Positions 21,328 to 57,585 of a stretch of 64,000 nt of DNA are shown piece after piece. Positions within the stretch are counted from its first letter, which is position 1. Every line of letters begins with the position of its first letter. Location: positions 1-64,000 of the forward strand of contig LADO01000010.1 of NCBI GenBank assembly GCA_000961595.1, read 5' to 3'. Origin of the DNA: Peptococcaceae bacterium BRH_c4b (GTDB lineage: Bacteria; Bacillota; Desulfotomaculia; Desulfotomaculales; Desulfocucumaceae). Under the pieces are notes generated by a model. That model was not told the origin of the DNA and searched no databases. It saw only the letters and a program-made list of their open reading frames with translations. The translations under genes were made by a program, and so were the position numbers.

Positions 21328-21330
21328 GTT

Positions 21331-29086: not shown

Positions 29087-29088
29087 TT

Positions 29089-30357: not shown

Positions 30358-30378
30358 ATTAAAGAATAGGGGTACTTT

Positions 30379-31905: not shown

Positions 31906-31925
31906 TTTTGAAAGGAGTTATAAAG

Positions 31926-32168
31926 ATGGCAAAAGTTGAAGAGTTTATTTTAAAATACATCCAGAAGAATTATACTGTTTCAGAAGATACTAACGTATAT
32001 ACTTTGAATTATATCGAGCAGGGATATATTGATTCGCTTGGACTTGTTAAGTTTATTATTGAATTGGAGGATGAATTTGGGTTTGAATTCAGTGACGATG
32101 AACTTAACTCACCTTCTATTAAAATTGTTGGCGAACTTATAAAGCTTGTCGAAAGGAAAATAGCATAA
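31926..32168 (+). CDS. Acyl carrier protein
   Basis: 80-residue acidic helical ACP. The phosphopantetheine attachment serine is Ser37 in GYIDSLGLVKF. ATG at 31926 chosen for AAAGGAGT six bases upstream; an in-frame TTG at 31908 is less likely. Partner of the preceding AMP ligase. Confidence 0.88.
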   Translation: MAKVEEFILKYIQKNYTVSEDTNVYTLNYIEQGYIDSLGLVKFIIELEDEFGFEFSDDELNSPSIKIVGELIKLVERKIA

Positions 32169-32243
32169 AATGAAAAATCATGAATTAGTTTTCAAAACCG
32201 AAGAAATACAAGCGACGTAATTTAAAGTAGGTGATATATCCAT

Positions 32244-34146: not shown

Positions 34147-34336
34147 ATTTGGTTATATATGGAATTCTTATGTAATTTCCAATACCCAAAGTTGTTAAAC
34201 ACAATTTCCTTTGATAATAACTTATTAAATGATCTAGAGGTTGTAGGGTGTAAAAAAGTTTAAATGCAGACGAGTTAAATATAAAACATTCACCGATTTG
34301 GACTGAATAAGAAGTATTTGAATGGAGAGAGGTTGG
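34147..34336. other. AT-rich intergenic region
   Basis: About 190 bases of very AT-rich DNA between the MBL hydrolase and the glycosyltransferase. No gene or clear hairpin; could contain an internal promoter. Confidence 0.4.
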
Positions 34337-35443: not shown

Positions 35444-35476
35444 CATTAAAACAAACGGTAAACGGAGTAATAGGTT

Positions 35477-36667: not shown

Positions 36668-36711
36668 CCGAATTTTGAGTTTTGTTAGTAAAGTGGAGTA
36701 GAGATATTAGT

Positions 36712-37944
36712 GTGAAAAACAAGACACTTTATAAGAACACATTTATGTTATATCTAATGACTGCGGCGAAATACATATTGCCTTTAGTCACATTGCCGTA
36801 TCTTACAAGAGTATTGGAGCCAGATGGTTATGGAATTATAACCTATATGACTGCTATGATGACATACTTTCAGCTGTTTGTTGATTTCGGATTCAATTAT
36901 TCAGCAACTAAGGTGGCATCGGAAAATAGGGACAATAGAACAAAGCTATCTTTATTATTGGGCGACGTTATCGCCGCCAAGATTGTCCTGGTAATCATTA
37001 GTGCGGTTTTTTTGTTTATTCTGATTCCGTATATTGCAATACTGAAAGAAAATATCCTATTAACATATTTGTATTTTAGCTCTGTTTTGATTTCAATTTT
37101 TCTTCCTGATTATATTTATCGTGGTATTGAAAAGATGGAGATTATCACGGTCAGATATGTCATCGCAAAATTAATTAGTGCAGTATTGATTTTAGTATTC
37201 GTCAAAGACAAATCCGATCTTTTATGGATTCCTGTTTTATATACTATCGGGACAGGCGTTGCTGTTGCATTTTCTTGGTACCATGTACTAAAAAAACTCA
37301 ATCTAAAATTGTGTTGGTTAAAGTTGCATAATGTTTGGAGTACATTAAAGGATTCCGGAGTCTATTTTGTTGCGGTTTTTGCAACGACAGCTTTTAGTGC
37401 TACCAATATTATTCTAATGGGATTTTCTAGTATAACTACCCAAGAAATTGCCTATTGGGGTGTAGCATATCAAGTTATAACCGCAATTCAGGCACTATAT
37501 GACCCAATAATTAGCAGTGTGTATCCACACATGGTTGCAAAAAGAGACTATGGCCTGATAAAAAAGATTTTGATGTTCATTATGCCCGTCATAATTATGG
37601 GCATAGCCGTTTCATATTGGTTGGCAGATTTGGCTATATATATTGTTGCAGGTAGTGGGTACTCAGCCGCAGCACCAATATTCTGTTTATTGTTGCCGGT
37701 TCTATTCTTTTCTTTTCCTGCGCAGCTATTGGGTTTTCCGGTACTTGGAACTATGGGGAAAGAAAAGCTTGCTACTCGGGCTACTATAATATCTGCCACT
37801 TTCCATGGGACAGGTCTTGTGGCACTATTCATTTCCGGTTCGTTTACATTAATCAATATAGCAATTTTGCGGAGTTGTACCGAAGCTGCTCTTTGCTTGT
37901 TTAGGGTTATTTTTGTTATAGCTATGAGATATATGAAACATTAA
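36712..37944 (+). CDS. Repeat-unit flippase (Wzx, MOP superfamily)
   Basis: Polytopic protein (~410 residues, ~12 TM) with the Wzx N-terminal pattern LYLMTAAKYILPLVTLPYLT followed by RVLEPDGYGI, which is characteristic. It translocates undecaprenyl-linked repeat units for Wzy polymerisation. The start is uncertain: GTG 36712 begins at the usual family N-terminus, though a TTG frame extends to 36682; neither has a strong ribosome site. Confidence 0.9.
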   Translation: MKNKTLYKNTFMLYLMTAAKYILPLVTLPYLTRVLEPDGYGIITYMTAMMTYFQLFVDFGFNYSATKVASENRDNRTKLSLLLGDVIAAKIVLVIISAVFLFILIPYIAILKENILLTYLYFSSVLISIFLPDYIYRGIEKMEIITVRYVIAKLISAVLILVFVKDKSDLLWIPVLYTIGTGVAVAFSWYHVLKKLNLKLCWLKLHNVWSTLKDSGVYFVAVFATTAFSATNIILMGFSSITTQEIAYWGVAYQVITAIQALYDPIISSVYPHMVAKRDYGLIKKILMFIMPVIIMGIAVSYWLADLAIYIVAGSGYSAAAPIFCLLLPVLFFSFPAQLLGFPVLGTMGKEKLATRATIISATFHGTGLVALFISGSFTLINIAILRSCTEAALCLFRVIFVIAMRYMKH

Positions 37945-37971
37945 AAATCAAGTTTTCAAGGGTGAATATTA

Positions 37972-39141
37972 ATGAAAATTGGTCAGATAACATTTTGTAA
38001 TTACAATTATGGCTCGGTCCTTCAGTGCTATGCGACCCAAAAAGTATTATCCTATTCGGGAATGGATTGTGTCCTTTTTCGAAGAAGAGATGGGAAAGCC
38101 GGACAAATTGTTGGCAAAATCTTGTATTTGCTAGATGGTGCATGTATGTGTTTGCGTTATCCGAGGTATATCACTAAGTTTTATAAATTATGGAAATCCT
38201 CTAGAAGAGCAGCATTGAAAACACTTTCTGAAGATAATCTGATGGCGATTGACGACTTTGTTAAAATTGAAATAAACAGCATAGAACGTTCTTACAGAAA
38301 CATGTTACTTGAAGCGAAAAAAAATGAATATATTGCATTTATTAGCGGAAGTGATCAGATTTGGAATGGGGATTGGTTCATTATTAATAAAATACATTTT
38401 CTTCGATTCGCACCTAAACATAAACGTGTTGCATGGGGTCCTAGTTTTGCAACTTCATCTGTTGCTAAATATAACAGAAGTAAATATAAGAAATACATCA
38501 GCGATTATAAAGCACTATCGGTACGTGAGTCGAATGGTGTTGCAATAATCAAAGAACTAACAGGGCGCGAGGTTAAAGTTGTGCTTGATCCGGTGCTACT
38601 ATTAACCCCAAGCCAATGGAGGTCAGAATATTCAACTAAAGATATTGATGTATTGGATTCAAAATATATATTAATGTATTTTTTAGATAAGCCGAGTGAA
38701 ATCGCAGTAAATAGCATCAATAAAATTCGGCAGAAAACCGGATTTCAGATTGTGGCTTTTGGACATAGACATGAAGCATATTCAATGATGGATTCTGTTA
38801 AATATGTCGGCGGTAGTCCATGGAATTTTTTATCAATGATTGACGGTGCAAGTTATGTCTGCACGGATTCGTTTCATGCTTTGGCCTTTTCACTAGTGTT
38901 TCATTCGCAGATATATGTTTTTAAACGTCAATATGCTCATAATTCAGACCAGTCGAGTCGCATAGAATCAATTATGAATATGTTCGAAATGAACGAAAGA
39001 TTTATAAATAACATGGATGAGCTGAAGTTAAATGAAAGCATCATTGATTTTAAATATATTGACCAAAAATTAGATAGAGAAAGAGAAAGGTCAGTTAGTT
39101 ACCTAACAAATGCAATTAAGCTGTGCGTTAGTATTAAATAA
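37972..39141 (+). CDS. Polysaccharide pyruvyl transferase family protein
   Basis: 389 residues of the PF04230 family, which adds pyruvyl ketal groups from phosphoenolpyruvate to sugars. Recognised by MKIGQITFCNYNYGSVLQCY, the FISGSDQIWNGD motif, VRESNGVAIIKELTGREVKVVLDPVLLL split across the fold, and SMIDGASYVCTDSFHALAFS. Adjacent to an FrhB-domain gene, a pairing commonly seen in exopolysaccharide loci. Confidence 0.9.
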   Translation: MKIGQITFCNYNYGSVLQCYATQKVLSYSGMDCVLFRRRDGKAGQIVGKILYLLDGACMCLRYPRYITKFYKLWKSSRRAALKTLSEDNLMAIDDFVKIEINSIERSYRNMLLEAKKNEYIAFISGSDQIWNGDWFIINKIHFLRFAPKHKRVAWGPSFATSSVAKYNRSKYKKYISDYKALSVRESNGVAIIKELTGREVKVVLDPVLLLTPSQWRSEYSTKDIDVLDSKYILMYFLDKPSEIAVNSINKIRQKTGFQIVAFGHRHEAYSMMDSVKYVGGSPWNFLSMIDGASYVCTDSFHALAFSLVFHSQIYVFKRQYAHNSDQSSRIESIMNMFEMNERFINNMDELKLNESIIDFKYIDQKLDRERERSVSYLTNAIKLCVSIK

Positions 39142-39153
39142 GGTGGAGTTGTT

Positions 39154-40341
39154 ATGGAGCAGGTTTATAGCATTAAGGAAGATTGCTGTGGTTGCGGTTC
39201 TTGCGCAGCTGTATGCGAACAGAGTGCAATAATAATGCAAATGGATGAGTGTGGATTTGCATATCCGTTCATTGATGAGCAGAAGTGCTTGGGTTGTGGG
39301 AGATGTAGGTCTATCTGTGCATTTTCAAAAGACAAAAAAGACGGGAAGCAACCCGTAGTAACTTATGCCGCAATCAACAAAAACATGGATGTATTAAATC
39401 GGAGTGCTTCTGGCGGTGTATTTGGCGTACTGGCGGAGTATGTACTAGATCGAAATGGCGTTGTTTTCGGATGTGCATTTGACGAGAAAATACAAGCAAT
39501 TCACATTGGAGTTGAGAAGTATGGTGATATAAAAAAAATTCAAGGATCAAAATATGTTCAGAGCTATATAGGAGATTGTTATAAGCAAATTAAGAAATAT
39601 TTACAGGATAATAGATTAGTGCTTTTTACTGGAACCCCTTGCCAGGTGGGAGCATTGAATTCTTTTCTTGGAAAAGAGTATGGAAATCTGATTACGGCAG
39701 ATTTGTCCTGTCATGGTGTACCTAGTCCGGAGTTCTTTCGCAATTATGTAAATTTTTTGAATAAAAAATACCACATTGAAATAAAAAATTTTTGCTTCCG
39801 CGGAAAATATGACGGCTGGGGAAAAACAGTAAGGATAGAATACGAAAAGTGTGGGGAAGAGTTCGATAAACTTATACAAGAGTATGATTCATATTATTGT
39901 ACGTACTTTTTGAACCGTTCAATAATGCGAGATAGTTGTTATAATTGCAAATATATGTGCGTTGAGCGCCCTGGCGATTTTACCATGTGCGATTATTGGG
40001 GAGTTGAGGAGACGCATCCGGATGTTAATCGTACAAACGGTGTATCAGCACTTTTGGTTAATTCTCTCATGGGGCAAAAAATAATCAATTTAGTAAGAGA
40101 TAAAATTGAACTGTTTCCAACGAATTTAGAGAAAATCCTTGTAAAGAATGGTAGCTTACGAGATGTTTCACCAATACCTGAAGAAAGAGAACGTATTTTG
40201 ACTTTGTGGAAAACTGTTGGCGCTGACGGATTGGATAAAGATTATCAACGCAAATACAAAAAGTATATAATAAAAAGACGAATAATAAAGTGTATACCCG
40301 ATGGTTTAAAAAGAAAAATAAAAGGTTATCTGCTCGGGTAA
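39154..40341 (+). CDS. Ferredoxin-FrhB domain protein (F420 dehydrogenase beta-like)
   Basis: 395 residues: an N-terminal 2x[4Fe-4S] ferredoxin domain (CCGCGSCAAVCE and CLGCGRCRSIC), then FrhB N- and C-terminal domains (SGGVFGVLAEYVL, FTGTPCQVGAL, SCHGVPSPEFF, CNYC-like CYNCKY). It is a flavin/iron-sulfur reductase module; the electron acceptor in polysaccharide loci is unknown, and an F420 requirement should not be assumed. Twelve bases after the pyruvyltransferase gene, so the two likely act together. Confidence 0.85.
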   Translation: MEQVYSIKEDCCGCGSCAAVCEQSAIIMQMDECGFAYPFIDEQKCLGCGRCRSICAFSKDKKDGKQPVVTYAAINKNMDVLNRSASGGVFGVLAEYVLDRNGVVFGCAFDEKIQAIHIGVEKYGDIKKIQGSKYVQSYIGDCYKQIKKYLQDNRLVLFTGTPCQVGALNSFLGKEYGNLITADLSCHGVPSPEFFRNYVNFLNKKYHIEIKNFCFRGKYDGWGKTVRIEYEKCGEEFDKLIQEYDSYYCTYFLNRSIMRDSCYNCKYMCVERPGDFTMCDYWGVEETHPDVNRTNGVSALLVNSLMGQKIINLVRDKIELFPTNLEKILVKNGSLRDVSPIPEERERILTLWKTVGADGLDKDYQRKYKKYIIKRRIIKCIPDGLKRKIKGYLLG

Positions 40342-40451
40342 TTTTGGGACCTGGCTTGCGCTATACCCAAAAACTATCATTAGGGAACAGTCTGTGAGCC
40401 AAGCTAAGGGCGTTACATGAGCGATATGAAGAATAGTGACGGGGTGGTAAT

Positions 40452-41708
40452 ATGACAGGTAACCCTTTTGGAAAAATATCACACGAGCTTTGGCTAATGC
40501 TGGCCAGCACCTCTGGCAATATAGCCAAAACACAAAACTTGCTGCTAAAGCCTGTTAATTGGGATGTGTTGTTGCAGCTGGCTCTGCACCACCGGGTGTA
40601 TCCGCTTGTTTATGAAACGCTAAGCCAATTAAACAACCCTGCCATACATGAAAATACCATTGGTTATTTGCAGCAAAAATACCGGGATAACGCCATGCAG
40701 GGATTATATTTGACCGGGGAAACAGTAAGGATGGTAAAATGTTTGGAAAGCCACGGCATCCGTGCAGTAGTGTTAAAAGGGCCTCCTCTGGCCTCGCGGT
40801 TGTATGGGGATGTAGCCATTCGACCGTACAAGGATATCGACATCCTGGTTCCGCCCGGTGAATTGGTCAAAGCACAGGGGATATTAGAAAAAGAAGGTTA
40901 TCTTAAAATTGATATTCCATATCCTGAACAAAATTTTACATCCAGGCAGTTCATGATAATAAAAAGATCTTTACATCAAAATTTCCATGTCAGTTACTGG
41001 CACAACACGAAGAATGTTAATATAGAATTACACTGGAGATTTGGTAAAAGTATTCATGAACTTCCATTTCCCAACGAAAGTAACATTACCAGAATTGAGA
41101 TAGCAGGTTATCTGCTACCAGTACTTTATGATGAGGATTGGTTAATATATTTGATATTGCACGGGGCCGGCCATGCTTGGTTTCGCTTGCGCTGGCTGGT
41201 TGATATTGCCAGGTTTGCTCAGCATGAAGGTATTGACTGGGAAAAGACAGCGTTTATGGCCAAAAGCACTGGTATACAAACACTATTACATCAGTCGTTA
41301 ATATTAGCTAATGGGCTTTTGAACGCGCCTATACCGGCTAATTTTCAATCAGTTGTAGCTTCTGACCGTGCGGCATGGTGGCTATCCCAGTTGGCCATAA
41401 ACGTGTGCATTGCCACTGCGGAATATGAAATTTGGGGCTCTAATGGTCTATGCGTTAGCTATTGGCAAGATATTTATAAATTTTACACACGTAGAGGATG
41501 GAAAAACAGATTTAATTATATCTTGAAAGACCTCAGTAAGCTCTTCAGTCCATCTATTAATGATTTCATGACCATATCATTGCCCGATAGGCTTTTTGGC
41601 TTGTATTATGTTTTACACCCGTTTTGTTTTCTATATCGTCGCTTAAAAAAACCACGGTCTAAAGTACCCGCGTTCGACAGTAACAAGATACACACAAGGC
41701 TCAACTAG
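40452..41708 (+). CDS. NTP_transf_5 (PF14907-like) nucleotidyltransferase
   Basis: 418-residue protein with a nucleotidyltransferase-fold core: VVLKGPPLASRLYGDVAIRP followed by YKDIDILV, giving metal-binding Asp128 and Asp130. Members are found next to exopolysaccharide genes and in kinase-containing lasso peptide clusters; from literature memory, PsmN of the pseudomycoidin cluster modifies a phosphorylated lasso peptide. It is host-like in composition, unlike the AT-rich genes before it, and 3.1 kb upstream of the RiPP cluster with mobile-element debris between. It may therefore belong functionally to that cluster (inference). Confidence 0.8.
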   Translation: MTGNPFGKISHELWLMLASTSGNIAKTQNLLLKPVNWDVLLQLALHHRVYPLVYETLSQLNNPAIHENTIGYLQQKYRDNAMQGLYLTGETVRMVKCLESHGIRAVVLKGPPLASRLYGDVAIRPYKDIDILVPPGELVKAQGILEKEGYLKIDIPYPEQNFTSRQFMIIKRSLHQNFHVSYWHNTKNVNIELHWRFGKSIHELPFPNESNITRIEIAGYLLPVLYDEDWLIYLILHGAGHAWFRLRWLVDIARFAQHEGIDWEKTAFMAKSTGIQTLLHQSLILANGLLNAPIPANFQSVVASDRAAWWLSQLAINVCIATAEYEIWGSNGLCVSYWQDIYKFYTRRGWKNRFNYILKDLSKLFSPSINDFMTISLPDRLFGLYYVLHPFCFLYRRLKKPRSKVPAFDSNKIHTRLN

Positions 41709-41730
41709 GCTACCCACAAGGGATTGTGGA

Positions 41731-41954
41731 CTAGCAGCCTGTCTGAATATTAACAGAAACCAGGATAATTGGCTTTAGATTGCGAAATATACATTACTTA
41801 CTGCCTGCTGCTACTGCTGACCCGGGTTAATTTAAAGGTAAAGAAATCCATGCTGGAGATCCAGCAATTACTGAAGGAAACCATGTTCAAGCCCTTTGAC
41901 GATTTTTTAGAGATTTTAAACATATGTTTTTTATTTCTTGGTATTGACTTTTAA
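41731..41954 (+). pseudogene. Fragment of a transposase C-terminus with one element end
   Basis: CTAGCAGCCTGTCTGA at 41731 matches the ends of the MITE at 43566-43701. Downstream, an open stretch (41769-41954) translates to a leucine-rich segment (YITYCLLLLLTRVNLK, then LLKETMFKPFDDFLEI) that resembles the last helix of IS4-type DDE transposases. No catalytic residues are left. Call is tentative. Confidence 0.35.
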
Positions 41955-41973
41955 AGACGATTTTTATGTTACG

Positions 41974-43242
41974 CTACTGAATACAATTCTCAACCTTAAT
42001 GTTTTCGCATTTATTAGCGGTTAATGTTGCAATTTTAGAATCTTTAACTGTTATTCTACCAATCTGGTAAATATGAAGTCGATTATTTCCCTCGCTTGTA
42101 TAATTTAAATTATCAATATTAACCTCACAGTTATATTTTCCTTCACTATCTGCTTTTGATAAAATAGTTGATTCCTTATAAGCATCTTTTGATAAGTTAA
42201 TATCACAATCTTTAACGATAATGTTTCTTTTGCCCCATAATACAAAACCACCATAGTTTGATTCGAATTTACAATTCTCAAAGGTTAAAACATCCGTAAA
42301 ATAATCAAGGTTACTTTCTCCCAAACACCTTACAGCAAAACAATTAGCAGCAACAAAAGTAGAGTTTTTAACCGTTATGCTGCCCCAAGTGTGTGGTACA
42401 TCAACAGAAACACAGTCAATTTGGAATGGCTCCGCTTTCCCAGGCACATTTAACCCGTACTGCGATATTGGATCGTCACTAACGCTAGATCCGTCAGAAA
42501 CAATATAACAACCATTAAATAATATATTATTGATAGTGGCATTTGGCCTAGCACTATTTGGCTCGATGTCGATTCCAGCCACAAAATTATTGTGTTTATA
42601 CCCGCTTATATTACGGAAATTGCAATTGACACCAGCTTCAATACAAATATTTAAGCGATTGGTATTGTTTATAGTTGTGCCATCAACACTAATATTTGTT
42701 GGTGAATAGTTCTCATCACTATCTGAAACATTAGTATCAATACCTAAAAAAATCCCATCCCCACCTAAGTTAGATAAATTCCCTCCAAGTACGGCAATGT
42801 TTGTAGACGAAAGAACTGCAATTGCATGACCTTTATCTCCGATGTAAAAACCATTATCACCAAAATTGATAGGGCACCCTGCGCCACCCCAACCGCCATC
42901 AATATCCGGGTCCACAATGAATAAAGTCTTTTCGTTTACTTTATTTTTAATTTCAAGGCAATTCTTCCTATAGTTTGTCATTTTTATCTTGCCATCAAAT
43001 ATGATGGAATTTTGGAGTTGTAAGGTGTCACTTATTAAATATAGGCCAGGTGGGACATAAACTGGTAAACCTGTCGCGATTGATGTTTTAAAAGCAATTG
43101 TATCGTCAATTGCATCATTGCTTATTGCACCATAATCTTGTGGTGTAACATAAGTATAGTTATCTGCAAAGGCCGTACAGTGAACGAATATTACCAGTAA
43201 TAGTAGTGTTATGCAAAGTAAAAACCTCTTTATTTGAAACAA
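41974..43242 (-). CDS. Secreted right-handed beta-helix protein (pectate-lyase-3-like)
   Basis: 422 residues: signal peptide (~1-26, FLLCITLLLLVIFVHCTAFA), then the PF12708-type start VTPQDYGAISNDAIDDTIAF and a long series of Asn-rich parallel beta-helix turns (NISVDGTTINNTNRLNI, GITVKNSTF-like). Such proteins cleave or bind polysaccharide; phage tailspikes share this fold. No catalytic residues can be named. It is AT-rich, on the opposite strand to both neighbouring systems and embedded in IS/phage debris, so likely acquired. It could process the exopolysaccharide made nearby. Confidence 0.82.
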   Translation of the reverse strand: MFQIKRFLLCITLLLLVIFVHCTAFADNYTYVTPQDYGAISNDAIDDTIAFKTSIATGLPVYVPPGLYLISDTLQLQNSIIFDGKIKMTNYRKNCLEIKNKVNEKTLFIVDPDIDGGWGGAGCPINFGDNGFYIGDKGHAIAVLSSTNIAVLGGNLSNLGGDGIFLGIDTNVSDSDENYSPTNISVDGTTINNTNRLNICIEAGVNCNFRNISGYKHNNFVAGIDIEPNSARPNATINNILFNGCYIVSDGSSVSDDPISQYGLNVPGKAEPFQIDCVSVDVPHTWGSITVKNSTFVAANCFAVRCLGESNLDYFTDVLTFENCKFESNYGGFVLWGKRNIIVKDCDINLSKDAYKESTILSKADSEGKYNCEVNIDNLNYTSEGNNRLHIYQIGRITVKDSKIATLTANKCENIKVENCIQ

Positions 43243-43305
43243 AGTTAATACCCCCTATTCCTTATACCGTTGCCCCTGTAGCATCTACCCATACAGCAGC
43301 AATAC

Positions 43306-43337
43306 CTTGCCCTGTACTCGACTTGCCCTGTACTCGA
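43306..43337. repeat. Tandem 16-bp duplication CTTGCCCTGTACTCGA
   Basis: Two adjacent exact copies, upstream of the IS3 remnant. Possibly a replication-slippage or insertion scar. Confidence 0.7.
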
Positions 43338-43342
43338 ATTGA

Positions 43343-43565
43343 TGGACACGCAGAACTGAGATAAAATCAAAGTACTGGAGGTGTCCATAATGGGATCAAC
43401 TGATACGACAAAGAATTCAAACTTGAAGCTGTACGCTTGGTTGTTGAAAAAGGCCGTAGTGCACTAAGCGTAGCGGATGATCTTGGAATCAGCGCAAAAA
43501 CCTTATATATTTGGATTAAACAATACAATAAACATCAGGCCGATGCATTTGACACCCAGTTTTAA
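43343..43565 (+). pseudogene. IS3-family element remnant: left end and truncated orfA
   Basis: TGGACACGCAGAACTGAGA at 43343 looks like an IS3-type terminal repeat. Translation from ~43402 gives YDKEFKLEAVRLVVEKGRSA followed by LSVADDLGISAKTLYIWIKQ, the helix-turn-helix OrfA of IS3 elements. The initiating region is one base out of frame (ATG at 43390), and the gene is cut at 43566 by the MITE insertion. No orfB remains. Confidence 0.8.
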
Positions 43566-43701
43566 CTAGCAGCCTGAACATTTATTAACAGCTTATTCCA
43601 ACTGAATCTATATATAGATTCTTCAACTTGATTTAACACAGCATTTTGTGCTTCATGGTATGGATTTCATATCATTTTACAATTCTCAGACAGGCTGCTA
43701 G
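43566..43701. mobile_element. 136-bp MITE with CTAGCAGCCTG terminal inverted repeats
   Basis: Ends CTAGCAGCCTG (43566-43576) and CAGGCTGCTAG (43691-43701) are perfect inverted repeats. A perfect internal palindrome GAATCTATATATAGATTC lies at 43604-43621. No coding capacity. It interrupts the IS3 orfA remnant; a related single end lies at 41731. Confidence 0.75.
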
Positions 43702-43835
43702 GACTATATTCCTTCTTGATGATACTCCAGTGAATGAGGCTAATATACTTAATACGAGGTAATAAATTTTTCTTATGTATTTTATAAAAACAGCATAACA
43801 AATGGTCATCTATCTACAGAATATTTGGTTAAAAA

Positions 43836-44295
43836 CAGACCTCTTTCGCCGGTCCACTTCCGCCCGGATACATCAGTCCATTTGAAAACTTTTCATCAAT
43901 GGTTTTTATCTGCCCGTCGATGTTATATGGCTGTCCCTAGTCCTGTTGTCCATTGTGGCAAGCCATTCCTTTTACTCCACATCTGCTTTATTATATGTGG
44001 CAAACGTTCCATGGGTTACACTCCCATGCATCTCCGTTCGGGCAATAGTCGTCGTCATTTTTCCTTGACATCAGTAAAGACCGCACTTATGCAGTCCCTT
44101 AGCTTCGGTATTGACTCACACTGCTCTATCCCTTCGGCCAGCGTTACCCGTAGCGCCTCCTTTGTGGTGTCGTTAATCTCTTTGACCAACTCCGCTCCGT
44201 CAGCCTTTATCCAATCCAGCATCTCCGGCCGGATCAGGTCAAAGGAAATCCCTAAATCTGTTTTTTGGCGTTCCCCACTTTCTTTTCGAAGTTCT
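43836..44295 (-). pseudogene. Decayed phage head-morphogenesis gene (Mu F / SPP1 gp7 type)
   Basis: Reading the minus strand across several frames gives AEGIEQCESIPKLRDCISAV, then IARTEMHGSVTHGTFATYNK, KEWLATMDNRTRDSHI and finally KTIDEKFSNGLMYPGGSGPA. This is the order of motifs in the C-terminal domain of Mu F/SPP1 gp7-family head-morphogenesis (minor capsid) proteins. At least two stops and two frameshifts break it. A plus-strand open frame over the same bases (43825-44301) has no homology I recognise and is an artefact. Confidence 0.72.
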
Positions 44296-44301
44296 AGCTA
44301 A

Positions 44302-44566
44302 TTTATAAATATTATATCGCCTTTGCCTGCTAAATCCTATCGCATTAATCTTAAAGCAGGTAATTAACTTAGGTTTTCTATTCGGCATCGCAAGTTTTCA
44401 ATAATAGGAAATTGATTCGTAGTGTTCCTAAAAATAAACTTATCTGTGCACCATAGTTCTGGGAACACCTTTCTTTTAAATAGTTATTGTTGGCTGCTTT
44501 ACAAATTCACGATTAAGAGCGACGGTCCTCTTTTTAGTCAAACTTTTCCTCAAAAATCATACCCAA
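44302..44566. other. Non-coding AT-rich DNA
   Basis: About 265 bases with no recognisable gene, repeat or hairpin, between the phage remnant and the shared leader block. Confidence 0.4.
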
Positions 44567-44640
44567 ATCATGCTCATACCTACAACTGATATACAGGTGT
44601 TATCATCCTTTGGTAGGATATTGCTGCACAGGCGAATATG
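44567..44640 (+). repeat. Leader block shared with the exopolysaccharide leader (copy B)
   Basis: Diverged copy of the block at 23345-23420: TCATACC, CTGATATACA, CTTTGGTAG and GCACAGGCGAATAT in the same order. It includes a small hairpin ATCCT-TTGGT-AGGAT at ~44611-44625. It presumably brings promoter or leader sequence that now precedes the RiPP cluster. Confidence 0.6.
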
Positions 44641-44670
44641 GTAAGATAGACGCTAAGAAACCGTTTCAAA

Positions 44671-44752
44671 TCCTACTTCATTGATGTGGTCGTAAGCAAC
44701 ATGACCCTATACTTGCAGCGGATATCGCAAATACATTGAACCGGGAATTTAG
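44671..44752 (+). pseudogene. Fragment of a second wzz-like gene
   Basis: Translates across one small gap to YFIDVVVSN followed by a stretch equivalent to LYLQRI and ENREF-like residues, aligning in DNA with 23890-23980 of the intact wzz (shared GTAAGCAA, ACTTGCAGCG, TATCGC, AATAC, GGAATTTA). It follows leader copy B, so leader plus wzz were once duplicated here and most of the gene was deleted. Confidence 0.65.
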
Positions 44753-44780: not shown

Positions 44781-45782
44781 ATGTTGTTGGAAAATCGAAA
44801 AAATCATTTTAGCCATGAGCTCAACATGATAAATCTGAAAAAAAGCTTCAAAAGATACCGCTACAAAGTTTTTGGCCTCCACATCGCGTCAGATATTTTA
44901 TTACCGGAGCTTTTGACTGCGATTGATACGTCTGATGCGCCGGAGGTCAGTATTAGTTTTGGTAAAGTTCCTACCGGTATTACAGACGCTGTTGAAAAAA
45001 CTAAGAGTTACCAGGTGGCAAAGAACCAATTTCTCTTACAAGTCCCGAGGGTGGGCCGTTATTACGTGACCAATGGAAACTGCATCCTTGTAGAGCCTGC
45101 TGAACAGGCGGATGAACGTTTTGTGCGGCTCTTTCTCCTGGGTACTGCCTTTGGATCGCTGCTTATGCAGCGGGGAATCCTTCCCATTCACGGCAGTGCT
45201 GTGGTTGTCAATGGGTGCTGTGTGATTTTTACCGGGGTATCCGGTGCCGGTAAATCGTCATTGTTAGCCGCCTTTAGAGAATGCGGGTATTCTTTTTTAA
45301 CAGATGATGTGGCGGCAGTGACACTGGATGCGGACGGTGTTGCATGGGTACACTCCGCCTACCCTCAACAGAAGCTGTGGCGGGACAGTGCGGAAACCAT
45401 GGGGGTTGATACTGTTTCTCTTACACCGTTTTATATTGGAATTAATAAGGACAAGTTTGCCGTACCGGTACATAAGGGATTTTGGCAATCACCTGTGCCA
45501 CTGGTTGCTGTATATGAACTCGGAGTGGAAAGGTACCGGGATGTAACCATTAGGTCTCTTTCGGGTATGGACAAACTGGCAGTGTTGATGAGTCATACCT
45601 ACCGGCCCTGGTTAATTGAAGGACTTGGTCTAAAAGCGACTCATTTTAAACATTGTGTAGCCATAGCCAGGCAGGTTGCCGTTTCCCGCCTGACCAGGCC
45701 GGAAGGGGTGTTTACACTGGAAGAGCAGGTACTTCTTGTGCAGCAGGATTTGACGCGACTGCTTGCCGACAGGGCGGTATAA
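44781..45782 (+). CDS. HPr-kinase-like RiPP kinase (lasso peptide kinase K)
   Basis: 333-residue P-loop kinase related to HPr kinase and to the PadeK/ThcoK lasso peptide kinases, which phosphorylate the C-terminal Ser side chain of a precursor. Seen here: a diverged N-terminal domain (~25-130), catalytic-type His137 (LPIHGSAVV), Walker A GVSGAGKS (152-159) and acidic FLTDDVAAV (Asp175, Asp176). AGGAGG at 44766-44771 sets the ATG. Both precursors of the cluster end in Ser, which fits this activity. First gene of the cluster, 31 bases before B1. Confidence 0.88.
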   Translation: MLLENRKNHFSHELNMINLKKSFKRYRYKVFGLHIASDILLPELLTAIDTSDAPEVSISFGKVPTGITDAVEKTKSYQVAKNQFLLQVPRVGRYYVTNGNCILVEPAEQADERFVRLFLLGTAFGSLLMQRGILPIHGSAVVVNGCCVIFTGVSGAGKSSLLAAFRECGYSFLTDDVAAVTLDADGVAWVHSAYPQQKLWRDSAETMGVDTVSLTPFYIGINKDKFAVPVHKGFWQSPVPLVAVYELGVERYRDVTIRSLSGMDKLAVLMSHTYRPWLIEGLGLKATHFKHCVAIARQVAVSRLTRPEGVFTLEEQVLLVQQDLTRLLADRAV

Positions 45783-45813
45783 TACTAAGCTTCAAAAAGG
45801 GGGATTGAGAAAT

Positions 45814-46104
45814 ATGGAAATAACAAAAGAAATCGGGTTTGATACCGTTGTTGCCCAGGCTAATGGGCTTGTGGCTGTCGATATGGACGGGGAAAAAGTC
45901 ATGCTGAACATTGAAAAGGGCAAATATTACGGATTGGACGGTATCGGCAGCCGCATCTGGGAACTGCTCGAAAAACCGCATACGGTTCGGGAGGTAGTGG
46001 CGGCGCTGCTAGAAGAATATGACGTGGAAGAAAAAACCTGTCAGTGTGATGTGCTGGCGTTTTTAAATAATCTTCATTCACAAAGGCTTGTTGATATTGA
46101 TTAG
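45814..46104 (+). CDS. PqqD-like leader-binding protein B1
   Basis: 96-residue stand-alone RiPP recognition element of the PqqD family. It binds the precursor leader and delivers it to the B2 protease. Motifs: VAVDMDGEKVMLNIEKGKYY, GLDGIGSRIWELLE and EEYDVEEKTCQCDVLAFL. ATG at 45814 is chosen because GGGGGATTGA precedes it; a longer frame from 45763 has no site. Overlaps the B2 gene by 17 bases, so translation is coupled. Confidence 0.9.
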   Translation: MEITKEIGFDTVVAQANGLVAVDMDGEKVMLNIEKGKYYGLDGIGSRIWELLEKPHTVREVVAALLEEYDVEEKTCQCDVLAFLNNLHSQRLVDID

Positions 46105-46561
46105 ACGGGTATTAAAATTCTTTGGTTTGTCATGGCGGGAGCAGTGGCTGTTCATAGAAGCCTTCTCCTTGACAGGGGTTGTGCGGTTGGCTATTCTATT
46201 GCTGCCTTTTCGCTGGCTGGCTCCGCTTCTCGGGAAACATATGCGGGAATCGCCAGTGAAGGAAGACGTTGCAAAGCTTGAAGCAGCCAGATGGTTTGGC
46301 CGGGTGGTTGAAACAGTGAGCCGCTATACACCATGGGAAAGCAAGTGTCTGGTCCAGGCGATAGCGGGTAAAATTATACTCCGGCGGCGCGGCATAACCA
46401 ATACACTATATCTCGGAGTGGGCAGGGATGAGGGAAGCGGTCTTATAGCCCATGCCTGGCTAAGATGCGGCGGAACGATAATAACCGGTGGCCATGGCCA
46501 GAAACGGTTTATTATAGTGGGTAAGTTTTCCGATGATGGGGGATACAAGGAATCAAAGTAA
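46088..46561 (+). CDS. Transglutaminase-like leader peptidase B2
   Basis: 157-residue lasso-type B2 protease that cleaves the leader from the precursor. A helical N-terminus (~1-45) is followed by the papain-like fold with nucleophile Cys87 (ESKCLVQAIAGKIILRRRG) and His122 (AHAWLRCGG). The acidic third residue of the triad is not evident, as in many Firmicute B2 proteins. The start is TTG 46088, 46091 or 46097; no strong ribosome site, so coupling with B1 is likely. A decayed copy of the last ~20 codons lies at ~51800-51860. Confidence 0.88.
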   Translation: MLILIRRVLKFFGLSWREQWLFIEAFSLTGVVRLAILLLPFRWLAPLLGKHMRESPVKEDVAKLEAARWFGRVVETVSRYTPWESKCLVQAIAGKIILRRRGITNTLYLGVGRDEGSGLIAHAWLRCGGTIITGGHGQKRFIIVGKFSDDGGYKESK

Positions 46562-46574
46562 AGGAGGTGAAGAA

Positions 46575-46724
46575 ATGAAACAACTATGGTCCGAACCGCA
46601 AATAACCGAAATTAAAGTTAGAATGACAGAAGATGATAAGGTAGGAGATAACACTGATATGTGGACAAATATGACTGGGTTAGACGGAGACATAGTTCCT
46701 GATGGTACTTGCTGCTGCTCATAG
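46575..46724 (+). CDS. RiPP precursor peptide A1
   Basis: 49-residue precursor with an excellent site AAGGAGGTGA at 46561-46570. The leader (1-19) has the recognition motif Trp5-Ser-x-Pro8-x-Ile10, like the YxxP motif bound by B1, and Thr18 aligns with the penultimate leader Thr of paeninodin-type lasso precursors. The presumed core from residue 20 starts with Asp rather than Gly, with Asp28 as position 9. Alternatively Gly35 begins a 15-residue unit with Asp43 at position 9. The peptide ends Cys-Cys-Cys-Ser; the terminal Ser is a kinase target candidate. Confidence 0.85.
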   Translation: MKQLWSEPQITEIKVRMTEDDKVGDNTDMWTNMTGLDGDIVPDGTCCCS

Positions 46725-47070
46725 ACACGCTGTAGGAGTGTTAACCGTTTTGGCAGTTTTATCTCACTGGGTGTAATGCTTTATCGTTATAGCTAGTATC
46801 ATCAGGTACTAGCAGAAAAATCCCCCGGAGGACACATATTTCCGGCATTTGTTTCACGGCTGCCCGGGAATAACGTTATTTGGCGGTAAAAGCCAATGGG
46901 CCTTCTATATTATAGGCGCAAGGCTTGCGCCGCTCTATTTTTATATGACACATAATTTCAACCTGTAAATCACACCGGCTAAAATGTTGTGAAACGATAG
47001 TAACCGGTGGCCCGGGGCGGGAACCATTTACTGTTATTTTAATTTCTGACGAAAATGGTGTTAAAAAGAT
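46725..47070. other. Spacer between precursor A1 and cyclase C1
   Basis: 346 bases with no gene. It contains an attenuator-like hairpin (46915-46945) and a second weak hairpin (CCGGAGGACACATATTTCCGG, ~46827-46847). The whole spacer is repeated in diverged form at 52022-52246. Confidence 0.6.
46915..46945 (+). terminator. Attenuator hairpin between precursor A1 and cyclase C1
   Basis: GGCGCAA-GGC-TTGCGCC (46915-46931) followed by a T-rich stretch (GCTCTATTTTTATAT). Partial termination here would yield more precursor than cyclase mRNA, a usual RiPP arrangement. The equivalent stem at 52156-52172 is eroded. Confidence 0.65.
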
Positions 47071-49038
47071 ATGAGCGCTATATGCGGCATTTACTATTGT
47101 GGCGGCAGACCGGTTGCCCCGGAAACGGGCGCGGCCATGATGCGGGAATTGGGTATCTATCATGCGGACGCTACGGGAACCTGGCAGGAGGGACAGGTGT
47201 TTTTCGGCTGCCATGCCCAGCATATAACTCCCGAGGCGTTGCGGGAAATTCTCCCATACCATGATAATATGGCCGGTTTAACGATTACGGCGGATGCCAT
47301 CATTGACAACCGTGTCGAGTTATGCGACAGGCTAGGTATCGATCATTGCTACCGGGACGGCATACCGGACAGCCTGTTGATTTTGCAGGCCTTTCGGAAA
47401 TGGGGTCAGAACTGCCTGAAATACCTTGTGGGCGATTTCGCCTTCGCCATTTGGGATGAAAAGCAGCAGGAACTGTTTTGCGCCGTAGACCCTACAGGGA
47501 CAAGGGCGTTTTACTATTACCGGTCGGCGGAGATATTTGTCTTTTCCACCCTGATCAAGCCACTATTCGTTCTGCCGGAGATTACCAAAGAGCATAATGA
47601 GACCTGGATTGCCGATTTCCTGGCTATGCCTTCCGTAATGCATCAACTGAACCCCGAACTGACTTTGTATCAGAATGTTCGTCTATTGCCTGCCGGGCAT
47701 ACGCTGACGATACGCCCTGATGGAGCAATTAAGCAGGTTTACTGGCAGGTCGAACGGCAGTCTGAACTAAAATTGAAGTCGGACGGTGAATATGAAGAAG
47801 CCTTCCGGGAAGTCCTCGGTGAAGCGGTGCGCTGCCGCTTGCGCAGCATCCGCCCGGTGGGGGTGATGATGAGCGGAGGGCTGGATTCCACCTCGGTGGC
47901 CTGTATGGCTGCCCGGGAACTAGCCAGGAGCAGCCGGCGGCTCCCGGCCTTCAGCGCGGCGCCGATGCCGGGCTACCGGGACTGGCTGCCTGCCGGCAGC
48001 CTGGCTGACGAAACGCCGTATATTGAAGCGGTAAGGGAACATATTGGAAATATTGATGTGACCTACTGCCGTTCAGAAGGAAAGCATGCCTTAAGCGATA
48101 CTGACCGGCTGCTGGCCATGCTGGAGCAGCCTTATAAGACAATCGAGAACTCGTTCTGGATTGACAGCATTATGGCGGTGGCGCTGGAACGTAATATTGG
48201 TGTTCTTTTACATGGAGGTGCCGGTAATGTCACCATTTCCTGGGGCGATTTTTCACCCTATCTGCTATCGCTGCTCCGGGCGGGTCAGTGGCGCCGGTTG
48301 TTCTATGAGATCAGGGCAATTGCCAGGCGTCAGCGCCGTCCGCTGAAGGCATTTTTCAAATTATATAGGATGCTGCTGCCTTATGATATGCAAAAATATT
48401 TATACCGGATTAATGACCGTGACAAGAAAATTCAGGATTTGTTACCCATTAACCCTGATTTTGCCCGCCGTACCTCTGTGCAGGAGCGGTTTCGCCGGTC
48501 CGGGTACGATCCGTTATTAATTAATCGAATGGACTCTTTAGAAGCGCGCAAGCAGCATCTTAGACCGGATTTTTTCAGTCACCTGGGTGTTATCACCACC
48601 AAACAGGCGCTGGCCTATCGAATGGCCTTGCGTGACCCCACTATGGACAAGCGAGTGATCGAATTCTGTCTCAGTTTGCCGGAAAGCCAGTATGTGCGGA
48701 ACGGCTGGGACCGGTTTTTAATCCGGCGGGCCATGACTGGTATTTTACCGGACAAAGTACGGCAGAACGCGACAGTACGAGGCAAACAGAGCGCCGATTT
48801 GGCCCAGCGACTGCAGTCCTGCTGGCCGGAACTGGTTGCCGAGATAAGAACCATCGGTCTCCTGGATGCTGAACGGAAGTATCTTGATGTTACCAAAATT
48901 AAGGCTAGACTGACAAGAATTAGTACAATAAATGACGATGCGTCAGATGACTACAACCTGCGTATGCTGATCCGCAGTCTAATCTTCAGCCGGTTTCTAA
49001 GACATGAAGAAAGCAAGGTTGGCGTTTGCGAAAATTGA
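47071..49038 (+). CDS. Asparagine-synthetase-like lasso cyclase C1
   Basis: 655-residue homologue of AsnB/McjC, which adenylates an Asp or Glu side chain of the core to form an isopeptide ring with the N-terminal amine. The N-terminal glutaminase-like domain begins MSAICGIYYCGG: the Cys2 nucleophile of AsnB is Ser, so it cannot use glutamine, as expected for a cyclase. The synthetase domain has the ATP pyrophosphatase motif MMSGGLDSTSVACMAA (~266). ~75% identical by eye to C2 at 52247-54208 in the first half. Start follows only AAAAAG, weak. Confidence 0.92.
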   Translation: MSAICGIYYCGGRPVAPETGAAMMRELGIYHADATGTWQEGQVFFGCHAQHITPEALREILPYHDNMAGLTITADAIIDNRVELCDRLGIDHCYRDGIPDSLLILQAFRKWGQNCLKYLVGDFAFAIWDEKQQELFCAVDPTGTRAFYYYRSAEIFVFSTLIKPLFVLPEITKEHNETWIADFLAMPSVMHQLNPELTLYQNVRLLPAGHTLTIRPDGAIKQVYWQVERQSELKLKSDGEYEEAFREVLGEAVRCRLRSIRPVGVMMSGGLDSTSVACMAARELARSSRRLPAFSAAPMPGYRDWLPAGSLADETPYIEAVREHIGNIDVTYCRSEGKHALSDTDRLLAMLEQPYKTIENSFWIDSIMAVALERNIGVLLHGGAGNVTISWGDFSPYLLSLLRAGQWRRLFYEIRAIARRQRRPLKAFFKLYRMLLPYDMQKYLYRINDRDKKIQDLLPINPDFARRTSVQERFRRSGYDPLLINRMDSLEARKQHLRPDFFSHLGVITTKQALAYRMALRDPTMDKRVIEFCLSLPESQYVRNGWDRFLIRRAMTGILPDKVRQNATVRGKQSADLAQRLQSCWPELVAEIRTIGLLDAERKYLDVTKIKARLTRISTINDDASDDYNLRMLIRSLIFSRFLRHEESKVGVCEN

Positions 49039-49055
49039 AGACGAGGAATTAATAT

Positions 49056-50855
49056 ATGGATATTCTTATGGTTTATGTCAGTGAGTTATATAATTTATCG
49101 CGAATTAAGTTTGTGGTTAATATGATACTGATGGTTGTGCTCGGGATAATGGAAGGTATAGGCGTATTATTGATTATACCATTATTAATTGTGGCCGGCA
49201 TTATTCCGGGTATGCAAGCAAGCAGTGGATTGACTTCCTGGCTGAATCATTTTTTTCAAAACATTGGTGTGCCATTAAACCTGTCGGTTGTACTGCTGTT
49301 ATATACAGGCATTATTTTTGGACAAAGTTGGCTGCAGCGCTATCAATCCCTACTTAATTTTGATATTCAGCAATCATTTGGTGTTTTTATATCTGTCAGG
49401 CTGTTCCAGGCGGTAGCTTATGCCGAATGGCAGCTTTTAATATCCAGGACGAAATCGGATATTACACATGTTATTATTTCTGAATTAATGCGTGTTTATA
49501 GCGGGGTAAATTATTTTTTGCAGATGATAACTACGGCTCTGATCACTTTGATACAAATTGTGATTGCTTTTATGATAGCGCCCGGTCTGAGTTGTTTGGT
49601 GCTGGCCGGTGCCTTTATTTTATTTATGTTTTTACAAACCTTCGTTAAGGAATCCCGCAGGATGGGACAAGATATTTCGAATTTAAACCGCAATTTACTA
49701 TTTGATCTTACAGAGCACTTAAACGGAATAAAAGAGATCAAAAGCTATGGTGTTGAGACAGCTCAAATACATAACTTTATCAAGACACGTAATATGATGA
49801 AAAAGAATCTTATTAGATTTAATAAAATTCAAACCCGGACAAACATGTTGTACAAAGTTGGCGCGGCTGTTTTTATCAGCTTATCCTTATTCAGCGCCAT
49901 TGAGATATTTAAGCTCAACCCTCAGGAGTTTATCGTGATTTCAGTTATTTCAGCCCGTCTATGGCCAAGACTCTCTTCCTTTCAAATGGGGTTGCAGAAT
50001 ATAAACACGATGCTGCCTGCTTTTCGAGCCACGAAAGAATTGGAAAACCAATGCCTTGCCGCCCGGGAAAACCTGCCGGAAGATGAGTCTTTTAAGAAGA
50101 TAGAATTGAAGCGCGGGGTGGAATTTCGCGACGTTTCATTTTACTATGACTCCGCCCGTGCAAATTACGCTGTGCAAGAGGCGAATTTTGTTCTTTCTGC
50201 CGGTACGACCACTGCATTTGTAGGTGTTTCCGGTTCAGGTAAAAGCACTTTGGTGGATTTATTGATCGGATTGCTAACGCCTAAAATGGGAGAAATTTTG
50301 ATTGACGGCGAACCATTGTTGGAAAATTTGCACCCATGGAGGATTTCCATCGGCTACGTACCCCAGGATGCTTTTTTAATGAATGCTAGCATCAGGGAAA
50401 ATCTGTTATGGGTTTGTCCAAATGCCTCAGAGGAAAGAATGTGGGAAGCTTTGCAGTTAGCCTCCGTCGATTCTTTTGTCGGCAGCCTGCTGGATGGCCT
50501 TGATACCGTTGTGGGCGACAGGGGAGTACGTCTGTCTGGCGGCGAGCGGCAGCGTATTGTTCTGGCGAGGGCGCTTTTGAGAAAGCCATCAGTTCTTATT
50601 TTAGACGAAGCCACAAGTTCTCTGGATTCGGAAAACGAAAAACGTATACAAAAGGCTATCGAAAGCCTGCAGGGCAAGCTGACTATCGTGGTTATCGCTC
50701 ATCGTATATCAACCATCAGGAATGCTGACCGGATTCTTGTCTTGGAGCAGGGACGTATCGTGGAACAAGGCAATTACCAGTCATTGATGGAAAATAAAGA
50801 TAACCGGTTCCACACTTTAGCCTATCTGAGTGAAACACCCGCTGCAGAGTTTTAG
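49056..50855 (+). CDS. ABC transporter, fused permease-ATPase (lasso exporter D)
   Basis: 599-residue half-transporter that would homodimerise to export the mature peptide and give immunity. Six TM segments in residues ~15-310, then the ATPase with Walker A GVSGSGKST, Q-loop YVPQDAFLMNAS, signature VRLSGGERQRI, Walker B VLILDEATSSLDSE and H-switch VVIAHRISTIR. No C39 peptidase domain, consistent with a separate B2 protease. Starts 17 bases after C1. Confidence 0.93.
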   Translation: MDILMVYVSELYNLSRIKFVVNMILMVVLGIMEGIGVLLIIPLLIVAGIIPGMQASSGLTSWLNHFFQNIGVPLNLSVVLLLYTGIIFGQSWLQRYQSLLNFDIQQSFGVFISVRLFQAVAYAEWQLLISRTKSDITHVIISELMRVYSGVNYFLQMITTALITLIQIVIAFMIAPGLSCLVLAGAFILFMFLQTFVKESRRMGQDISNLNRNLLFDLTEHLNGIKEIKSYGVETAQIHNFIKTRNMMKKNLIRFNKIQTRTNMLYKVGAAVFISLSLFSAIEIFKLNPQEFIVISVISARLWPRLSSFQMGLQNINTMLPAFRATKELENQCLAARENLPEDESFKKIELKRGVEFRDVSFYYDSARANYAVQEANFVLSAGTTTAFVGVSGSGKSTLVDLLIGLLTPKMGEILIDGEPLLENLHPWRISIGYVPQDAFLMNASIRENLLWVCPNASEERMWEALQLASVDSFVGSLLDGLDTVVGDRGVRLSGGERQRIVLARALLRKPSVLILDEATSSLDSENEKRIQKAIESLQGKLTIVVIAHRISTIRNADRILVLEQGRIVEQGNYQSLMENKDNRFHTLAYLSETPAAEF

Positions 50856-50873
50856 TTTTATGTTAAGAAGGGG

Positions 50874-51206
50874 ATGAATAACATATTGGCTTATAAAATA
50901 TTTAACTTAATTATATTGTCAATGTGTGTCTCGACTGTATCTTTAACAATAACTAAAAGTAAATTTTTTTCATTCCTGCGTTATTGGGTCAATAAGCGCA
51001 ATGAAAGGCTGGGAGCATTGTTAAGTTGTTCTTATTGCATGAGTCACTGGGTTGCTACATTTTTCGTTATCTTATTATATATTTACAGTCCCATAATAAT
51101 GGTAACTAATATATTATTAATTGATGCTATCATAACGATATTTGCAACAATTTCACTTGCTACAATCATCACTGGCATAATGCATTTTAGTATTTTAAAA
51201 ATGTGA
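50874..51206 (+). CDS. DUF1360-like small membrane protein
   Basis: 110-residue protein with two hydrophobic stretches (~8-28 and ~58-105) and the motif LLSCSYCMSHWVATFF, which resembles the C-x-Y/F-C-x-S-H/F-W core of DUF1360 proteins. Function unknown. ATG 50874 lies directly after AAGAAGGGG; TTG 50886 is an alternative start with better spacing. Nineteen bases after the ABC gene and ended by a strong terminator, so it belongs to the RiPP operon and may assist export or immunity (inference). Confidence 0.75.
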   Translation: MNNILAYKIFNLIILSMCVSTVSLTITKSKFFSFLRYWVNKRNERLGALLSCSYCMSHWVATFFVILLYIYSPIIMVTNILLIDAIITIFATISLATIITGIMHFSILKM

Positions 51207-51216
51207 AAGGAAAAAG

Positions 51217-51254
51217 AAAAAAGGTGTTTCCTTCTTGCCGGAACCACCTTTTTT
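51217..51254 (+). terminator. Rho-independent terminator within the RiPP cluster
   Basis: AAAAAAGGTG(T)TTCC, 8-base loop, GGAA(C)CACCTTTTTT; long A- and T-flanked stem that can work in both directions. It separates the first operon (K to DUF1360) from the VanZ gene and the second A-C module. Confidence 0.8.
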
Positions 51255-51265
51255 GAAGATATAGA

Positions 51266-51784
51266 ATGAAAAGGTATTGGAAATCTTTGAAATCATTAAA
51301 TAAAGTTAACGTTATTTTATGGCTTACTAACATATTATGGATGTTATTCATCTTTTATCTTTCATCACAGCCTGCCCGAGTATCTAATAATCTAAGCAAA
51401 AAAATAACAATATTATTTGTTAATTTCACAAAACAGGTTCAAGAGATAAATTTTATAAGCCAAAAACATTTTAGCGAAATCAATGACATAATACGCCAGT
51501 ACGCACATGTAGTGGTATATATAGTATTGGCAATTTTTGTTGTTAATGCACTAAGAGGTAGTGGGATGAATGTATTGATGAGTTGTTTACTTGCATTCCT
51601 TATTAGTGTCATTTTTGCCTGCTCAGATGAGATTCACCAGATGTTTGTGCCAGGCCGGGGAGTACAGTTACAGGATTTAATAATGGATTGTATTGGGGTT
51701 TTGTTAGGGTTGGCAATCTATACTATATGTACCTTGTTTTTTAAGAAAGTGATAAAATCAAAGGGGAAAGATGTGACGAGATGA
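51266..51784 (+). CDS. VanZ-family membrane protein
   Basis: 172-residue polytopic protein with the VanZ pattern: ILWMLFIFYLSSQPA near the N-terminus, then HVVVYIVLAIFVVNAL, and CSDEIHQMFVPGRGVQLQDL in the conserved loop. VanZ-like proteins change cell-envelope properties and can give low-level resistance to teicoplanin or to envelope-active peptides; here an immunity role toward the cluster product is plausible but unproven. Starts 12 bases after the terminator, so it must be expressed from read-through or its own promoter. Confidence 0.82.
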   Translation: MKRYWKSLKSLNKVNVILWLTNILWMLFIFYLSSQPARVSNNLSKKITILFVNFTKQVQEINFISQKHFSEINDIIRQYAHVVVYIVLAIFVVNALRGSGMNVLMSCLLAFLISVIFACSDEIHQMFVPGRGVQLQDLIMDCIGVLLGLAIYTICTLFFKKVIKSKGKDVTR

Positions 51785-51794
51785 TAATAACTGA

Positions 51795-51860
51795 ATGACA
51801 GGGCCGGGAACGGTTTACAATGATGAAAAAGTTGCCGATGATGGGGGATACAGATAATTC
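51795..51860 (+). pseudogene. Relic of the 3' end of a B2 gene
   Basis: AACGGTTTA...AAGTT-CCGATGATGGGGGATACA copies the last ~20 codons of the intact B2 gene (46500-46555), with small indels. It marks the left edge of the duplicated A-C module. Confidence 0.7.
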
Positions 51861-51880
51861 AAGGAAAGGAGGCGAAAAAA

Positions 51881-52021
51881 ATGAGAAGAGAATGGTCTAA
51901 GCCTCAAATAACCGAGATTAAAGTTAAAATGACAGAAATGCCTGCTAATGACCACCCACCGGGTAATGCCAACGGCAAAATCAGTACTGGTAATGATGCT
52001 TTTGGTTTGGGACATTCATAG
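51881..52021 (+). CDS. RiPP precursor peptide A2
   Basis: 46-residue precursor, ribosome site AAAGGAGGCG at 51865-51874. Leader residues 5-15 (WSKPQITEIKV) differ from A1 only at one position (Lys7 for Glu7), and Thr18 is conserved, but the rest is different: Pro/Asn/Gly-rich and ending GLGHS. If cleaved after residue 19 the core has no Asp or Glu at positions 7-9. A 15-residue unit from Gly32 with Asp39 at position 8 and C-terminal Ser46 is the alternative. Located 97 bases after the VanZ gene, upstream of its own cyclase. Confidence 0.82.
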   Translation: MRREWSKPQITEIKVKMTEMPANDHPPGNANGKISTGNDAFGLGHS

Positions 52022-52246
52022 ATATAACGCAAGCGTATTAATTGACCTGATTAAAAAAAGAAATCCCCCTGAGATATAAATATTTCCGCTTGCTTCACGG
52101 TTGTCCTGGAAATAGCGGTATTTGGCGGTAAGAGTTAAGGGGCCTTCCAGCTTTAGGCGCCAAGCTTATGCCGTTCTTTTTTACCATTGGCAAGCCCGGA
52201 GTTGCACAATCCTTGAATTTGCTGACGAAGATGGTGGTAAAAAGAT
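52022..52246. other. Spacer between precursor A2 and cyclase C2
   Basis: Diverged copy of the A1-C1 spacer, shorter by ~120 bases. It keeps TTGGCGGTAAAAG-type and GGGGCCTTC segments and a weakened hairpin (GGC...GCC, 52156-52172) followed by TTCTTTTTT. No gene. Confidence 0.6.
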
Positions 52247-57490: not shown

Positions 57491-57500
57491 TTTAAGGTCA

Positions 57501-57567
57501 GGGGACACACCTTCTTGGGTTATCTGAATTCATTACTATCTAAACAAAATCACGAAGGAATGTCCCC
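57501..57567 (+). repeat. GGGGACA...TGTCCCC interspersed repeat, copy 5
   Basis: 67-bp copy in the fakA-fakB spacer, ending 10 bases before the fakB ribosome site. Very close to copy 1 at 18650-18716. Confidence 0.8.
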
Positions 57568-57585
57568 AAAATTAGGAGGGAGACT

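Follow-up and report, generated by a model that had tools for sequence, protein, structure and literature searches.

Organization of the EPS and lasso-peptide loci

The DNA analysed here, referred to as the window, is a stretch of 64,000 nucleotides from Peptococcaceae bacterium BRH_c4b (contig LADO01000010.1, positions 1 to 64,000), and it carries an exopolysaccharide (EPS) locus followed by a lasso-peptide cluster. The features concerned are listed below with their coordinates and strand.

23336-23447, + strand: leader copy 1, which precedes the intact wzz; aligns with 44551-44666 and is otherwise single-copy
23432-24403, + strand: wzz, chain-length determinant (Pfam Wzz/GNVR); 82% DNA identity to Desulfocucumis palustris from 23469
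24429-41708, + strand: EPS locus, comprising wze, capD, variable sugar genes, Wzx, a pyruvyltransferase and, as the last gene, a nucleotidyltransferase (PF14907) (Pfam)
41709-44550, no strand: decay zone between the EPS locus and leader copy 2, with a pectate-lyase-like gene, transposase remnants and CTAGCAGCCTGTCTGA end repeats
41974-43242, - strand: the pectate-lyase-like gene (Pfam)
44551-44666, + strand: leader copy 2, delimited by its alignment with copy 1
44671-44752, + strand: wzz scrap of 27 codons, frameshifted and without a start codon; 83% identical to 23897-23978 and 82% to D. palustris wzz
44781-45782, + strand: K, HPr-kinase-like kinase (weak Pfam match, PF07475), first gene of the lasso cluster
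45763-54208, + strand: remaining lasso cluster, comprising B1, B2, a precursor-like ORF, C1, D (ABC), DUF1360, a VanZ-like gene, a second precursor-like ORF and C2 (Pfam, NCBIfam)

The closest genome in our comparison is that of the sister species, D. palustris NAW-5, whose genes are 75 to 85% identical to those of the window. Its EPS locus also starts with wzz-wze-capD (82% DNA identity) and continues with different sugar genes; within the EPS locus, similarity at the DNA level is limited to these first three genes. The true start of wzz in the window is probably the TTG at 23489, near the onset of this similarity. In the decay zone, repeated CTAGCAGCCTGTCTGA ends lie at about 41.73 and 43.69 kb, the stretch 41793-41981 has copies elsewhere in the genome, and the transposon remnants near leader copy 2 include an HTH_Tnp_1 fragment (Pfam). 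A reading of 43.8-44.3 kb as a phage head gene received no confirmation from Pfam.

K is 75% identical to its counterpart in D. palustris and 80% identical to that in a Pelotomaculum MAG. B1, with a PqqD-type RRE, matches lasso_PqqD_Bac (NF033536) with 109 bits at a cut-off of 80, and the leader peptidase B2 matches lasso_biosyn_B2 (NF033537) with 112 bits at a cut-off of 33; the best model for C1 is the lasso macrolactam cyclase NF033535, at 449 bits and thus under the cut-off of 525. A lasso precursor is expected to have a threonine near the end of its leader and Asp or Glu at ring position 7 to 9. The two precursor-like ORFs (46575-46724 and 51881-52021) match no family and, by eye, show W-S-x-P leader motifs, MT near the leader end and non-canonical cores. 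Their leaders can be written as WSxPQITEIKV, and one of the unusual cores has a GTCCCS end. The putative cyclase gene is duplicated (47038-49013 and 52213-54195, 82% identical), each copy standing behind its own precursor-like ORF, and D. palustris has one.

Elsewhere in the window, two DegS/DegU-like two-component pairs (5077-6874 and 16638-18432, 68% DNA identity) flank a pilus-type gene block. A dispersed repeat of ~75 bp (18638-18798, 20833-20913, 21325-21410 and 57488-57575) occurs at least 47 times in the genome, in both orientations and sometimes in tandem. A LuxR-type regulator (62430-63116) is accompanied by a protein resembling its N-terminal part (63289-63777); the two stand ahead of wzz in D. 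palustris and G097, and ahead of K in G030. A link between the leader and the LuxR-type regulator at 62.4 kb was considered and dropped, since the regulator precedes wzz in D. palustris, yet the leader is absent there.

A second copy of the leader and of part of wzz

According to the original prediction, the block 23345-23420 recurs at 44567-44640, and a wzz fragment at 44671-44752 matches 23890-23980. Both matches are real, and the coordinates proved right to within about 15 bp. In a blastn comparison of the window with itself, 23357-23424 and 44574-44642 are 75.4% identical (E 1.6e-4), and local alignment widens this match to 23336-23447 against 44551-44666, with a score of 215 where 2000 dinucleotide shuffles gave a mean of 85, a standard deviation of 13 and a maximum of 144. 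The same self-comparison pairs 23897-23978, inside wzz, with 44671-44751 at 82.9% identity (E 6e-16), and here the alignment score of 293 exceeds a shuffled maximum of 157 (again 2000 dinucleotide shuffles), so that neither block aligns merely as well as shuffled sequence. The leader block has no copy beyond these two in its own genome (3.62 Mb), and the same genome holds no other copy of the wzz-scrap block. The two pieces of the second copy are collinear with the original and on the same strand, and between them the copy lacks ~430 bp that the original has at 23448 to about 23875. Diverged leader-wzz copies thus bracket the 23.4-44.7 kb segment, as had been proposed, with the second copy just upstream of K, which starts 29 bp past the scrap.

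The second copy had been called decayed, and this description suits one of its two parts. The wzz scrap is truncated at both ends, and with 27 codons and a 1-nt deletion it falls short of a functional wzz, which would have an open frame with a start codon and transmembrane and GNVR parts. The leader core, in contrast, carries three private changes against five in the working copy and does not appear decayed. In a three-way alignment of the scrap with the two intact genes, private changes number 5 in wzz, 8 in the scrap and 6 in D. palustris wzz, which is close to a star. From this alignment of only 82 bp we infer that the scrap split from the intact wzz about when the two species separated, and the near-equal distances argue against an origin in a recent copying event. 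The leader cannot be dated independently because it is absent from D. palustris.

The core element of the leader

Within both leaders we delimited a core element.

23345-23402, + strand: core element copy 1, TCATACC direct repeats spaced by 11 bp, then an imperfect inverted repeat (CTGCCA ... TGGTAG); aligned with the element of G032 and G080
44562-44620, + strand: core element copy 2; its divergence from the outgroup element is not above that of copy 1

Among periods 6 to 15, period 11 gives the highest self-match in both leaders of the window. A blastn search of 113 genomes of the order detected no true homologue of the leader; matches in G017, G063 and G047 were rejected as short chance matches at unrelated places. 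A sequence profile built from the two copies, run on the same 113 genomes, found one locus in G032 and G080 (per-genome E about 1e-3), two genomes of one genus, which is also that of Sporotomaculum syntrophicum (G093). We counted the two as one independent observation, of which about 0.1 would be expected by chance. The match is weak, and it may represent the same element of 11-bp direct repeats and inverted repeat; in G032 it is made credible by a period-11 array of AATCATACCTA in 3.6 perfect copies, which precedes the element and lies mostly outside the profile model. The private changes given above, five in copy 1 and three in copy 2, were counted with G032/G080 as the outgroup, and these eight changes in total are too few to tell constraint from youth.

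Support for a conserved inverted-repeat structure is modest. In an alignment of four sequences, of which two are orthologous, 95% of cells keep the pairing and two pairs have changed on both sides; 41 of 500 shuffled controls reach the same pairing support, and a DNA dyad would give the same picture. Single-strand folding of either leader is no better than that of shuffles, and identities within the leader are not clustered above chance (P 0.40). Comparison with Rfam, including EAR, gave no match, whether at the gathering threshold or with E values up to 1. A scan of the second copy for a sigma-70-like promoter detected none, and visual inspection led us to reject a sigma-H-like site in copy 2, its spacing being wrong and the site missing from copy 1.

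In G032 (L168, 1458-2260) the leader-like element lies upstream of a 42-aa ORF and next to a second, decayed copy of the FlhB-like gene that adjoins it; G080 has lost most of this region of ORF and duplicate. The G032 location indicates that the element is not confined to EPS loci. In both genomes it sits between convergent genes, which, together with the decayed FlhB-like copy in G032 and with the position of the window leader at the point where synteny with D. palustris breaks, might suggest a repeat, mobile or palindromic, that brought along or picked up scraps of neighbouring genes. We consider this improbable, since the element has two copies in its own genome, none in D. palustris and one each in G032 and G080, was not found in plasmid and phage collections, and shows neither terminal repeats nor target duplications; with these counts it does not behave as a transposon or a phage attachment element. 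Scanning IMG/VR for exact patterns yielded 26 and 11 matches, which were discarded as being at about chance expectation or inside coding genes.

Comparison with relatives and origin of the second copy

In D. palustris, K-B1-B2-C-D (78% DNA identity) immediately follow the EPS locus in the same orientation, K being about 80 bp past the last EPS gene, and the junction contains neither the leader nor the wzz scrap. This adjacency indicates that the EPS and lasso loci were already neighbours and that the missing DNA was EPS DNA, and it speaks against the proposal that an EPS locus was replaced by the lasso (RiPP) cluster. The remnant at 44551-44752 is either specific to the lineage of the window or was lost in D. 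palustris.

The placement of the whole EPS-lasso block differs among relatives: in D. palustris it is downstream of FakA-DegV...LuxR, in the window it occupies the interval from about 21.6 kb to FakA (55.9 kb), and in three members of the family (G005, G006 and G007) the genes found at 1 to 21 kb of the window adjoin FakA without the block. Relatives without the 23.4-44.7 kb segment therefore exist, but what they lack is a larger island of ~34 kb, which includes the lasso cluster and whose edges, at about 21.6 and 55.9 kb, are not at the repeats. This bears on the idea that recombination between the two copies can delete the 21-kb EPS segment. The repeats are in direct orientation, and relatives without EPS genes at this site are known; however, the copies share 75 to 83% identity over about 110 and 82 bp, and no stretch of identity between them exceeds 11 bp. 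Identity this short is far below what efficient homologous recombination needs, and we regard a deletion hot spot as very improbable.

We think that 44551-44752 is a scar left by a second EPS module, and we put the probability of this reading at roughly 0.55. The 5' end of that module, a leader and a wzz paralogue, would have preceded the lasso genes and formed a tandem with the EPS module seen today; one deletion would have taken the rest of the module and another the 5' part of its wzz, leaving K 29 bp behind the scrap. The star-like divergence of the scrap, together with the occurrence of tandem modules in the order (G037 has two tandem wzz-wze modules with wzz starts 4.4 kb apart), favours a lost tandem module over recent copying. 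Further points consistent with it are the transposon remnants beside the scar, the cassette pattern of conserved wzz-wze-capD and lasso ends around an unrelated middle, and the contrast between a broken wzz scrap and a leader core as near to the outgroup element in copy 2 as in copy 1. Among the genomes compared, none was found with both EPS modules intact before K.

It can also be envisaged that what was copied in front of K comprised no more than the leader and a 5' portion of wzz, and that no complete second EPS module ever stood there. The self-comparison of the window agrees with this, as only leader and wzz pieces are found and it detected no trace of wze, capD or sugar genes near 44 kb. 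However, a divergence as old as the species split would require long persistence as a fragment, yet the scrap shows one frameshift in 27 codons, and tandem modules are known in the order. We deem such a short dispersed duplication a minority possibility, and we infer that a whole second module, not just its 5' end, was once present. The feature is real, and its evolutionary explanation is an ordinary one. EPS modules beside a stable lasso cluster can, by this account, be lost, which may help explain the lasting EPS-lasso linkage.

Possible joint control of EPS and lasso genes

The retained leader would now form the 5' region of the lasso operon. Because ~3 kb of junk separates the two loci, the lasso operon would have lost read-through from the EPS genes, and the leader may subject K to a signal of the EPS type. 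With an intact leader core, control shared through the leader, as the original prediction had it, is possible.

Under selection, the leader copy may have been kept as a candidate cis-element that gives the lasso operon EPS control, acting either as repeats bound by a response regulator together with the inverted repeat or as a leader RNA. Such a regulatory fusion would be compatible with an origin as a scar. It is suggested by the lower number of private changes in the core of copy 2, by the recurrence of the element upstream of the 42-aa ORF in another genome, by 11-bp repeats in phase with the DNA helix, and by the joint up-regulation of EPS and lasso genes in Paenibacillus alginolyticus, where they are induced together in stationary phase (PMC13381572). 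Against it stand the eight changes, too few to separate constraint from youth, the unclustered identities and lack of a promoter-like site in the scan, and a structure supported by four sequences, two of them orthologous. We treat selection for such a fusion as a tentative proposal. The fuller version, in which the leader represents a cis-regulatory element not described before, made up of 11-bp repeats in helical phase and a hairpin or dyad, which EPS-module turnover moved in front of the lasso operon and which couples lasso to EPS expression, seems to us somewhat less probable still. A shared leader before both operons in one genome would be a concrete cis-element for joint control.

Comparison with known systems

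EAR, the eps-associated RNA of Bacillus (Rfam epsC), is a leader element upstream of an EPS operon. The leader of the window has the same position, but differs in being short, in having direct repeats and in having no Rfam match. Capsule and EPS loci are known to exchange cassettes, with a conserved wzz-wze end and a variable middle. The same pattern is seen here, as conservation between two species covers wzz-wze-capD and the lasso flank but not the sugar genes; unlike in simple cassette exchange, a remnant of a second module lies at the 3' border.

Lasso clusters within capsular and EPS loci have already been described for Bacilli (PMC13381572), and the related loci compared here fit that description. 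Clusters of the paeninodin-like type recur inside EPS loci. The cluster of the window resembles the paeninodin-like clusters in capsular/EPS loci of Bacillota in its HprK-like kinase, its discrete PqqD-type RRE (B1), its B2 and its putative cyclase, and also in its MsbA-like ABC exporter and in the NTP transferase next to the EPS genes (PMC13381572). It differs from them in the unusual cores of its precursor-like ORFs and in the copy of the EPS leader and the dead wzz scrap that stand at the start of its lasso operon.
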